Shown piece after piece: positions 11,601 through 13,942 of a stretch of 34,160 nucleotides of DNA. The position numbers and the translations under genes were made by a program. The notes beneath the pieces were generated by a model that was not told the origin of the DNA, did not search any database, and saw only the letters and a list, made by a program, of their open reading frames with translations. Origin of the DNA: Sterolibacterium sp. (GTDB lineage: Bacteria > Pseudomonadota > Gammaproteobacteria > Burkholderiales > Rhodocyclaceae); the NCBI GenBank assembly GCA_023258955.1, contig JAHFRE010000021.1, forward strand, positions 1 to 34,160, given 5' to 3'. The first letter of the stretch is position 1, and each line of letters begins with the position of its first letter.

Positions 11601-12359
11601 ATGTCCTACCTGCGCTCCATCCTCTATTTCCTGATCCTGCTGCTGGTGACGCCACCCTACGCCCTGCTGATGATCTTCTGCTTTCCGCTGCCGCATCGGA
11701 TGCGGCGCTACACCGCCGTGCCCTGGGTGTTCCTGGTCATCTGGCTGATCAAGCATCTGCTCGGCATCGACTACCGTCTGCTGGGCAGGGAGAACATTCC
11801 GAACCGCCCCGCGGTGATCCTGTCCAAGCACCAGTCTGCCTGGGAGACCGTGGTGTTGCAAGAGATCTTTCCCCTTGCCCTGTTCGTCTGGAAGCGCGAA
11901 CTGAAGTGGCAGTTGCCGTTCTTCGGCTGGGCCCTGGCAGTGATACCGATGATCTCGATCGACCGCGGTGCCGGCAAGAACGCCCTGCGGCAACTGGTCG
12001 AGCAGGGGCGGCTGCGGCTGTCCCAGGGTTATCCGGTGATCATCTTTCCCGAGGGGACCCGCGTGCGCTTGGGGACCCGTCGCCGCTACAAGATCGGCGG
12101 CGCACAGCTGGCGGTCGCAAGCGGTGCGCCGGCTGTGCCCTTGGTGCACAACGCCGGCGAATTCTGGGGACGCAACGCCTTCTTCAAGAGCCCCGGCACC
12201 ATCACCGTCAGCATCGGCCCGGCGATCGATCCGCAAGGCAAGAGCGCCGACGAGGTCAACTCCCTGGCCGAGCGCTGGATGGAAGCGGAAACGGCGCGCA
12301 TCAGCCCGCGCTACTATGCCGATGAAAGTACGCAGCCCTCAACTCAGCCTGCGGCTTGA
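11601..12359 (+). CDS. plsC: 1-acyl-sn-glycerol-3-phosphate acyltransferase (PlsC/NlaA-like)
   Basis: 252 residues. It should acylate lysophosphatidic acid at the inner membrane. An N-terminal hydrophobic segment (about residues 7-28) and a second (about 41-55) precede the acyltransferase domain. Motif I is KHQSAWE, with H77 and E82, that is HxxxxE instead of the common HxxxxD. I recall the same substitution in Neisseria NlaA-type enzymes, so it is probably functional. Motif III is FPEGTR at 149-154. The gene begins one base after the gmhB stop, and its 3' end overlaps the next ORF by about 38 bases in another frame. Confidence 0.92.
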   Translation: MSYLRSILYFLILLLVTPPYALLMIFCFPLPHRMRRYTAVPWVFLVIWLIKHLLGIDYRLLGRENIPNRPAVILSKHQSAWETVVLQEIFPLALFVWKRELKWQLPFFGWALAVIPMISIDRGAGKNALRQLVEQGRLRLSQGYPVIIFPEGTRVRLGTRRRYKIGGAQLAVASGAPAVPLVHNAGEFWGRNAFFKSPGTITVSIGPAIDPQGKSADEVNSLAERWMEAETARISPRYYADESTQPSTQPAA

Positions 12360-12789
12360 GGCCGAGCAGCCCTTGGCGACGCGCTGGCACGACGGCGCCG
12401 AACTTCCCTTCCTCGGCGGCGTGATGTCGCTCAGACTGGCCACCCAAGAACAGTCGGCAGCGAGCCACGGCTCGGTGTTGCACCTGCCCCTGCCGCCCGG
12501 GGCAACACCGCGCCAAATCCAGGACGCCGCCGAAGCCTGGCTGCGGCGCGAGGCGACGCGGTTCATCGATCGCGCCCTGGGTCGCCTCTGCGCGGGCAAG
12601 GTGCCGCGCTGGCGCTTCTCCTTCGCCGCGCGCGGCGCCTGGACCCAAGCCCAGGCCGACGGCACGTTGCGCGTGAACTGGCGCTTGATCGAGCAGTCGC
12701 CGGCGCTGATCGAGCAATGCCTGACGCATCTGCTGGCGACCTCTGCGCCGCAGCAGGCGCTGCCCCTTGGCGATCTGCTCGCGGCATGA
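12322..12789 (+). CDS. Degenerate DUF45/YgjP-type paralogue lacking the HExxH zinc motif
   Basis: 155 residues from the ATG at 12322; an ATG at 12316 is also possible, and neither has a clear ribosome binding site. It aligns by eye with the C-terminal two thirds of the next gene. DGAELPFLGG (residues 24-33) matches [10 protein letters not shown] (98-107) there, and NWRLI (119-123) matches NWRLI (192-196). The spacing from NWRLI to the first histidine is the same in both. Where the neighbour has HELAH, this protein has HLLAT, so the catalytic glutamate and the second histidine are lost. It ends 15 residues later, without the third-ligand region. It cannot be an active zinc protease of this type. 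It overlaps the active gene by four bases (ATGA), suggesting a regulatory or structural partner, or a decaying duplicate. Confidence 0.8.
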   Translation: MKVRSPQLSLRLEAEQPLATRWHDGAELPFLGGVMSLRLATQEQSAASHGSVLHLPLPPGATPRQIQDAAEAWLRREATRFIDRALGRLCAGKVPRWRFSFAARGAWTQAQADGTLRVNWRLIEQSPALIEQCLTHLLATSAPQQALPLGDLLAA

Positions 12790-13541
12790 ACCTCTTTGAA
12801 CAACTGCCGCTGTTCCGCAGCGCACCGCCGGACGGGGCGAGCGGCGACAGGCAGCGCTACCTGCAGCTGGGCGCGCGCGTCGTCGCCTACAGTCTGCGCC
12901 AGGGCAAGCGCCGCCGGCTGTCGATGACCATCGACGAGCGCGGCCTCTGCGTCGGCGCACCGCCGCGCATGGCTTTGAAGGATATCGAAGCCTTCATCCT
13001 CAGCCACAGCGCCTGGGTGGGGAAGAAGCTCGACGAGCACGTCGCCAACCACGCCCGGCGCCACCTGCGGGTGCGCGACGGGGCGCGCCTGCCCCTGCTC
13101 GGCGGCGAGAGCGAAGTGCGCGTCGTCGCCGGCGCCAACCGCGTCGCTTGGGACAACGGTACCCTGGTGATCAAGGCGCGCGCCGACGCCGATTGCGAGG
13201 CGCTGGCGCGGCGGGCGCTGCAGCGGCACGCCAGCGCTGTCTTCGCCGAGCGCATCGCCCACTACGCGCCCCTCGTCGGTCATCCGCCGCCTGCCCTGCG
13301 CCTGTCGTCGGCGCGCACGCGATGGGGTAGCTGCAGCGAGAAGACAGGCATCAGCCTCAACTGGCGGCTGATCCACCTGCCCCTGGCGCTGATCGATTAC
13401 GTGGTGGCGCACGAGCTGGCGCATCTGGTCGAGATGAACCACAGTCCGCGCTTTTGGGCCGTGGTCGCGCGCCTGTGCCCAGACTGGCGTGAACTGCGCC
13501 GTCGCCTGAAGGACAGCGCGGCGCAACTGCCCATACTCTGA
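12786..13541 (+). CDS. YgjP-type (M48-like, DUF45) metallopeptidase
   Basis: 251 residues. The YgjP/DUF45 family has a SprT-like zincin fold. The zinc motif HELAH is at 209-213, and the likely third ligand H219 is in EMNHSPRFW. The RWGSCS (179-184) and LNWRLI signatures of the family are present. The N-terminal part includes [17 protein letters not shown], also typical. There is no signal peptide, so it should be cytoplasmic. The substrate is not known from sequence. It overlaps the upstream degenerate paralogue by four bases, so the pair is translated together. The reading frame runs upstream, but only the ATG at 12786 makes sense. Confidence 0.92.
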
Positions 13542-13552
13542 GAGGACTGGCC

Positions 13553-13942
13553 ATGAGAATCCTGCACACCATGCTGCGCGTCGGCGACCTCGAGCGATCG
13601 CTGGCCTTTTACACCGGCGTGCTGGGGATGAAGCTGCTGCGTCGCAATGACTTTCCCGCCGGCAAGTTCACCCTGGCGTTTGTCGGCTACGGCGAGGAGG
13701 CCGATGGCGCGGTGCTCGAACTCACCCACAACTGGGGCGTCGAAAAGTACGAGCTCGGCACGGGCTATGGCCACATCGCCATCGCCGTCGATGACGCCTA
13801 CGCCACCTGCGCCGAGATCAAGCGCCGCGGCGGCACGGTGACGCGCGAGGCGGGACCGATGCAGCACGGCACGACCGTGATCGCCTTCGTCGCCGATCCC
13901 GACGGCTACAAGATCGAACTGATCGAGAAACGCACGAACTGA
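13553..13942 (+). CDS. gloA: Lactoylglutathione lyase (glyoxalase I)
   Basis: 129 residues. GloA converts the methylglyoxal-glutathione hemithioacetal to S-lactoylglutathione. The metal ligands fall at H5, E56, H74 and E122, identical in number to the nickel-type enzyme of E. coli. The sequence [21 protein letters not shown] is a typical glyoxalase start. A GAGAGGA-type ribosome binding site lies just before the ATG. It is the last gene of the plus-strand run and is followed directly by a strong hairpin. It has no obvious functional link to the protease pair upstream. Confidence 0.97.

Follow-up and report, generated by a model that had tools for sequence, protein, structure and literature searches.

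A protease-dead YgjP paralogue and its active neighbour with N-terminal clamp-type motifs: a putative clamp-associated minigluzincin pair in Sterolibacterium sp.

Wss1, Spartan (SPRTN) and GCNA are described, in the available sections of two accounts, as minigluzincin proteases (PMC4559962; PMC5098910). SPRTN carries a PCNA-interacting peptide (PIP) box that binds the eukaryotic clamp PCNA and that is called dispensable for recruitment to the fork in the excerpted text of PMC7782752. For the bacterial clamp, excerpts of two papers give QL[S/D]LF as the consensus binding motif and QLSLPL as a tight binder (PMC12309361; PMC4549789), and an extract of a third describes a six-residue form of the motif and one clamp bound simultaneously by two partners (PMC13254535). 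YgjP figures in the accessible portions of the literature as a UTP pyrophosphatase (PMC12783615), as a putative metal-dependent hydrolase (PMC8003623), as a name borne by proteins that do not transport preQ1 (PMC11130926), and merely as a test transcript (PMC9437053). A literature search mainly within open-access text, with subscription papers and preprints mostly outside its scope, returned nothing on clamp binding by YgjP, a dead YgjP paralogue, a clamp-tethered bacterial protease or a bacterial protease of DNA–protein crosslinks. The present analysis concerns a pair of adjacent genes, ygjP and a 155-codon open reading frame (ORF) directly upstream of it, in a 34,160-nucleotide stretch of Sterolibacterium sp. 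DNA (assembly GCA_023258955.1, contig JAHFRE010000021.1, positions 1 to 34,160 of the forward strand), hereafter the window.

The upstream ORF encodes a DUF45 protein without a zinc site, its neighbour encodes an active-type YgjP, and both proteins begin with a clamp-type motif. These N-terminal motifs are the most informative feature of the pair and were missed in the initial annotation. The interpretation that YgjP is a clamp-recruited minigluzincin, with the dead gene product as its clamp-binding pseudoprotease partner, is given roughly an even chance of being correct. The features on which the argument turns are the following.

12322..12789, + strand: protease-dead DUF45 paralogue, 155 residues, ATG start (PF01863, E 1.2e-8).
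12786..13541, + strand: active-type YgjP, 251 residues, with a predicted minigluzincin-like fold in its C-terminal half (PF01863, E 3.9e-57).
12340..12357, + strand: QLSLRL, residues 7-12 of the dead paralogue, in a low-confidence tail; conserved in a 75-row alignment.
12801..12815, + strand: QLPLF, residues 6-10 of YgjP, in a low-confidence tail; QxxLF in 73/73 rows.
12385..12744, + strand: predicted folded DUF45-like core of the dead paralogue, residues 22-141 (AlphaFold2 model of the dead protein: predicted local distance difference test (pLDDT) 86.9, predicted template modelling score (pTM) 0.75).
12478..12555, + strand: LHLPLPP.A.PRQIQD.AEAWLR.EA, residues 53-78, the block of the dead paralogue with the highest conservation (75-row alignment).
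12772..12780, + strand: D-L-L, residues 151-153 at the C-terminus of the dead paralogue, at the position of a conserved DLF/DLW tail motif.
13323..13334, + strand: WGSC, residues 180-183 of YgjP, present in 73/73 YgjPs.
13410..13424, + strand: zinc site HELAH, residues 209-213 of YgjP; H209, E210 and H213 invariant in 73 rows.

Relatives were collected by a scan of 84,980 species genomes, which gave 86, the best 80 being kept as named loci. The dead-copy alignment has 75 rows and omits L202 (start mis-assigned), L221 (contig end) and L178, L180, L220 and L228 (long or unclear starts). The YgjP alignment has 73 rows and omits L164 and L227 (no frame), L154 and L208 (cut), and L180, L190, L216 and L220 (start unclear); the omitted YgjPs that have a frame (L154, L208, L180, L190, L216 and L220) do show the motif. 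In these alignments the dead paralogue starts ...PQLxLRLD, with Q7 in 75/75, L10 in 72/75 and L12 in 71/75 rows, and YgjP starts ...EQLxLF, with Q6, L9 and F10 invariant. QxxLF is thereby present in all 73 YgjPs and in 1.3% of shuffled tails, and the loose pattern QxxLx[LIVFM] in 71/75 dead copies and 5.9% of shuffled tails. The stricter revised consensus from the literature is matched by 70/73 YgjPs (shuffled 4.3%) and 65/75 dead copies (shuffled 2.6%). Knowledge of the motif partly guided the choice of start codons in the named loci; the motif itself was counted in open frames, where its regular expression finds 74 of the 80 dead copies; the misses are L165, L171 and L191 (F for the second L), L197 (degenerate), L202 and L221. 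The motif is not forced by the overlap with plsC, the gene upstream, since it begins past the plsC stop in 37 loci.

In the AlphaFold2 models, residues 1-20 have block mean pLDDT values of 57 and 58 in the dead paralogue and a pLDDT below 50 in YgjP. Both N-terminal tails are probably disordered, and in both proteins the motif lies in such an accessible, low-pLDDT segment. Hda of the same family served as a positive control: it starts with Q..L.[LIV] in 25/28 loci when read by eye, the other three lacking the right frame and L147 and L148 of the 30 loci being left out, and a stricter regular expression gave 9/28. Among active DUF45 proteins retrieved from the family, the motif is carried by 31/31 dead-copy partners and by 6/6 singles of type A, by 10/31 type-B singles linked to plsC, by 1/20 singles whose locus lacks plsC and by 0/22 other, more distant DUF45s, a count that omits G061 (active, HECAH) and places G043 (split YgjP frame) in the last class. 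Shuffled sequences give a background of 0.1-3.5%, and windows elsewhere in the same proteins one of 0-3.2%. Outside the family but within the order, 7/20 have the motif (QLSLF, QFLLPF twice, QLSLL, QLELLF, QLDLF, QLALDF), some of which may precede the true start codon.

Two YgjPs from further afield carry similar stretches. One from another family of the class (L257) has a clear N-terminal QLSLF, which may be an independent gain. The C-terminal end of E. coli K-12 YgjP (L278, 10961-11464), ...WLTQLSLGQNKI, holds a QLSLG stretch resembling the clamp motif minus its final F, at the opposite end of the protein from the tails studied here.

The paralogy of the two proteins is confirmed by several comparisons. 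PF01863 matches the 155-residue protein with 35.6 bits, above the curated cut-off of 26, over profile positions 46-172 of 207, which substantiates the DUF45 membership proposed in the initial annotation; 71 of the 75 aligned relatives match at E <= 0.01. BLASTP aligns it to YgjP at 30% identity over 121 columns (E 2e-7), and profile-profile alignment of the two families (hhalign) gives a probability of 98.7 and E 4e-16 over YgjP residues 96-226. The landmarks DGAxLPxLGG and NWRLI, from which the relationship had been proposed, stand in place in both sequences, and the distance from the N of NWRLI to the first histidine is indeed 17 residues in each. HELAH had also been said to have become HLLAT. 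The zinc site is lost, but the remaining histidine is no conserved relic: its column is R in 51/75 and H in 3/75 rows, and HLLAT is local to this genome. Because absence of HExxH had been a criterion in the initial selection of dead copies, it was recounted in unfiltered frames and found in 0/80 of the named matched frames and 0/30 of those from the family search. WGSC is likewise present in 0/75 dead copies vs 73/73 YgjPs.

The core of the dead paralogue is truncated, starting opposite YgjP residue 96 and stopping after the helix equivalent to the YgjP HExxH helix. Fourteen positions are invariant across the 75 copies (Q7, W22, L53, L57, P58, P59, R64, Q65, D68, E71, W73, A78, F101 and R117), and they cluster in the block of residues 53-78, not at the zinc site. 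This block is a candidate new binding surface. The C-terminal tail contains DLF in 62/75 and DLW in 6/75 copies; DLF resembles the last three letters of the clamp motif, without the Q. NCBIfam gave no match to the dead protein and, for YgjP, one weak match below that model's cut-off. A role in anti-phage defence was rejected, as neither protein had a PADLOC match at E <= 0.1.

YgjP itself is of the active DUF45 type. It matches the whole of PF01863 with 194 bits, HExxH is present in 73/73 aligned rows, and H219 (13440-13442), likewise invariant in the 73 rows, is the probable third zinc ligand. Its AlphaFold2 model (pLDDT 87.6, pTM 0.66) places the catalytic half closest to abylysin (4jiu), with Z 11.5 and a root-mean-square deviation (rmsd) of 1.8 over 96 aligned residues (Foldseek E 2.3e-4). 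Selecase scores Z 9.7-10.7 in four entries and 5.9 in another (4qhh), and jannalysin scores 10.0; over six minigluzincin entries the range is Z 9.7-11.5 and rmsd 1.8-2.2. The YgjP profile, searched against the PDB, likewise matches proabylysin 4jiu (E 6e-6). The predicted fold of YgjP is thus of the minigluzincin (abylysin/selecase) type. Similarity to Wss1 (5xbn, Z 7.1, Foldseek E 0.012) and SPRTN (6mdw, Z 7.0) is lower, with the unrelated zincin BepA at 6.5, and no SprT-like or WLM profile exceeds its cut-off for YgjP (WLM 17.7 bits against 26, SprT-like 15.7 against 25.6). The model of the dead protein compares with selecase 4qhh at Z 8.2 (rmsd 2.2, 64 aligned), HtpX at 7.4, abylysin at 7.2 and SPRTN at 5.7, and its profile retrieved nothing relevant from the PDB.

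The pair is a conserved feature of its group. The 155-residue query has a match in 75 of 101 family genomes, many of these being ordinary YgjP, and PF01863 itself is found in 99. Sorting of frames by score and HExxH leaves a dead copy in 32 of the 101, directly before an active YgjP in 31; plsC is present in 29 of the 32 loci, the remaining three lying at contig ends. Among the named loci, which share many genomes with the family set so that the counts are not additive, a YgjP frame comes next in 78/80, the exceptions being L164, whose sequence ends too soon, and L227, where (region 592-1596) a livM-like gene directly follows the dead gene in place of ygjP. Conservation of the pair, raised in the initial annotation as a possibility, is therefore borne out. 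The 80 loci are mostly titled Rhodocyclales, Rhodocyclaceae, Sterolibacterium, Sulfuritalea, Sulfurisoma or Rugosibacter; the others are mainly Betaproteobacteria or Proteobacteria without a finer name, with single loci from Gammaproteobacteria, Burkholderiaceae, Zoogloeaceae and Propionivibrio. A profile of the dead form matches 56 of 150 order genomes at E <= 1e-15, two of them in the window's family, and the 20 inspected of the 54 order matches beyond the family were all active full-length YgjPs.

The dead gene is under purifying selection. By the Nei-Gojobori method, its ratio of nonsynonymous to synonymous substitution (dN/dS) is 0.14-0.48 among the 45 pairs listed of 232 close ones, pairs that are not independent, and so lies below 1. 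The same 45 pairs give 0.03-0.21 for YgjP and 0.06-0.18 for plsC, so the dead gene is less constrained than its neighbours. Comparison of tree distances shows a link between dead copy and YgjP beyond that with plsC (partial r 0.44 vs 0.23), a weak mirror-tree test that is not taken as proof.

The dead gene had been taken, if decaying, for a simple duplicate of the gene that follows it, and this part of the initial annotation does not stand. In a tree of 103 rows, 22 dead copies cluster together (100/100), and four further dead forms (G004, G010, G028 and G073) attach to this cluster at 100/99. The next to join are six active YgjPs from the same family that are linked to plsC (99/90); the YgjP partners stand apart, and forcing the dead copies together with their partners makes the tree 42 log units worse (approximately unbiased (AU) test, p 0.021). 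Because the dead copies group with the plsC-linked YgjPs of other genomes and not with their own neighbours, they are an old paralogue, belonging to the lineage from which some other members draw their active plsC-linked YgjP. The rows were sampled, the bootstrap had not settled, the tree is midpoint-rooted and long branches lead to the dead copies; because of these branches and the root, the deep placement is not fully certain. Three of the four further dead forms, at 235-238 residues, retain the N-terminal subdomain, and G073, G004 and G028 bridge the gap from active YgjP to the short form. Catalysis seems to have been lost first and the N-terminal subdomain later. The three long dead paralogues (loci L031, L032 and L038, in G073, G004 and G028) have QLDLPL or QLELPL tails.

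These observations suggest a model for how the pair could act. YgjP would be a soluble zinc protease of minigluzincin type, drawn to DnaN by its N-terminal QLxLF tail. The pseudoprotease would derive from an ancient second YgjP that shed its zinc site, its N-terminal subdomain and the part after the HExxH helix, kept a QLxLxL tail and evolved the new conserved block LPLPP...RQIQD.AEAW. Clamp binding is strongly indicated for both tails by their motifs, and since one clamp can hold two partners, YgjP and the pseudoprotease could share one ring. A partnership between the two proteins is fairly suggested by the adjacency of their genes and the modest tree-distance link. On the clamp, the pseudoprotease would most likely position, license or restrain YgjP, and the likely task of YgjP would be, by analogy with SPRTN and Wss1, to degrade proteins trapped on DNA, either at the fork or behind it. 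More tentative, and less probable than the interpretation stated at the outset, is a true two-subunit clamp-tethered protease, in which the two proteins fill both pockets of a single DnaN ring and clear replication blocks, a system convergent with SPRTN and equipped with a regulatory subunit of its own.

Several points weigh against this interpretation. Clamp binding is a prediction from a short motif. The motif is found in 2/58 DUF45s beyond the order, one perhaps by chance and the other the clear QLSLF of L257, and is absent from 21/31 plsC-linked type-B singles, so clamp docking would be a trait of this lineage and not what YgjP did ancestrally. Nearly all partners of dead copies belong to a single clade, so that the count of 31/31 amounts to one or two events. 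On the structural side, the Z scores of about 7 for Wss1 and SPRTN are close to what an unrelated zincin, for example BepA, attains; Foldseek yields no match for the dead protein that reaches E 0.001, the best being jannalysin at 0.045; and HtpX ranks above SPRTN in the structural comparison of the dead protein. The tree-distance link between dead copy and YgjP is modest, and YgjP tracks plsC more closely (0.59). In one metagenome-assembled genome of 79% completeness (G084, locus L227), a transporter gene follows the dead gene and YgjP was not found. Finally, the neighbouring genes (plsC, a glyoxalase gene and a HAD phosphatase) are not DNA-repair genes.

The best surviving alternative, itself unlikely, makes the dead paralogue chiefly an inhibitor or zymogen-like cap, which would form a heterodimer with YgjP and block its active site with the DLF tail or the core, the clamp motifs being secondary. 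Oligomers (in selecase) and pro-segments play inhibitory roles in minigluzincins. The nearest solved folds are zymogens and selecase (abylysin, jannalysin, selecase), the DLF/DLW tail, conserved in 68/75 copies, lies in a low-confidence end of the model, and the genes are adjacent in 78/80 loci, all as a cap would have it. Such a role leaves unexplained why the clamp-type motif is as conserved as the core of the dead protein.

Doubtful too is the proposal that the dead paralogue competes for the clamp or binds it independently, its DUF45 core being reused, for example, to bind DNA or protein without contacting YgjP. Its own clamp-type motif, invariant residues that lie in block 53-78, distant from the old active site, and the one genome with a dead gene and no adjacent YgjP are consistent with this. 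The adjacency of YgjP in 31/32 and 78/80 loci argues the other way, as does the neighbouring YgjP in the 31 family loci, which always bears the motif itself.

It is also improbable that QLxLF and QLxLxL are not clamp motifs at all, serving instead as ends for another partner or folding back on their own core. The clamp reading comes from resemblance of sequence, and most DUF45s examined outside the plsC-linked set lack the motif, both of which leave room for such a role. It would have to account for the two distinct published forms, pentapeptide and hexapeptide, in paralogues, for invariance or near-invariance at exactly the positions named in the clamp literature, and for the same form in Hda of the same family; the low pLDDT of the tails also speaks against it. 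Decay is very improbable: although the dead gene has a higher dN/dS than YgjP in 42 of the 45 pairs, is truncated relative to it and turned up in no more than 32 of the 101 family genomes, a dN/dS of 0.48 or less in every listed pair, invariant residues over 75 copies, an absence of internal stops from strong family matches and an old separate clade all oppose it, and a decaying duplicate of the next gene is rejected on the tree, the AU test and dN/dS.

The locus surrounding the pair has the order HAD-family phosphatase, plsC, 155-residue ORF, ygjP and a glyoxalase-family gene. The phosphatase upstream of plsC is assigned to its family by Pfam matches and is presumably gmhB. The remaining features are as follows.

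11601..12359, + strand: plsC-type acyltransferase, upstream neighbour of the dead paralogue (PF01553, E 1.3e-19).
12786..12789, + strand: ATGA start/stop overlap of four bases between the dead gene and ygjP.
13553..13942, + strand: glyoxalase-family gene (gloA-like), next after ygjP (PF00903, E 2.9e-28).

The 3' end of plsC overlaps the dead-paralogue ORF by 38 nucleotides, an overlap absent from the initial annotation, which had pointed to the four-base one and to co-translation. The ATGA overlap is present here, but only 15/78 named loci have it; with start codons as assigned in this analysis, adjacency of the two genes is the feature that is kept. Of 73 related loci with sufficient sequence, 51 have the glyoxalase gene next to ygjP. 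Crosslinks between protein and DNA can be formed by methylglyoxal, and this linkage may be meaningful or may be mere inherited synteny.

The invariant QxxLF tail gives the orphan YgjP family a concrete candidate partner, and the same kind of tag on the pseudoprotease recasts a loosely defined dead paralogue as a regulator whose role can be tested. If the predicted binding is true, the pair would represent a bacterial version of replication-coupled proteolysis on a minigluzincin-like fold, and a group of environmental bacteria may possess an equivalent of the proteases with which eukaryotes remove protein blocks from DNA.

The pair can be compared with several known systems. The dead paralogue resembles PF01863 proteins in its profile score, in NWRLI and DGAxLPxLGG, and in its profile-profile match to YgjP. 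It differs from them in lacking HExxH, WGSC and the N-terminal subdomain, in having only a short tail past the HExxH helix, and in its extra clamp-type tail and DLF end. The minigluzincins abylysin and jannalysin/selecase superpose on the catalytic half of YgjP. The archaeal chains have about 104-112 residues, and the match in YgjP begins near residue 145-152, so that YgjP adds about 150 residues before it, together with the clamp-type tail. SPRTN and Wss1 differ in that their clamp is PCNA, YgjP scores below the SprT and WLM cut-offs, and a DNA-dependent activity of YgjP would follow only by analogy; a pseudoprotease partner is not mentioned in the excerpted parts of the accounts cited above. 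What they would share with YgjP, as far as those excerpts describe them, is a minigluzincin protease domain and, in SPRTN, a clamp-docking PIP box comparable to QLxLF. Hda, finally, presents the same N-terminal hexapeptide form QLxLxL as the dead paralogue within the same family, with a different protein behind the motif.

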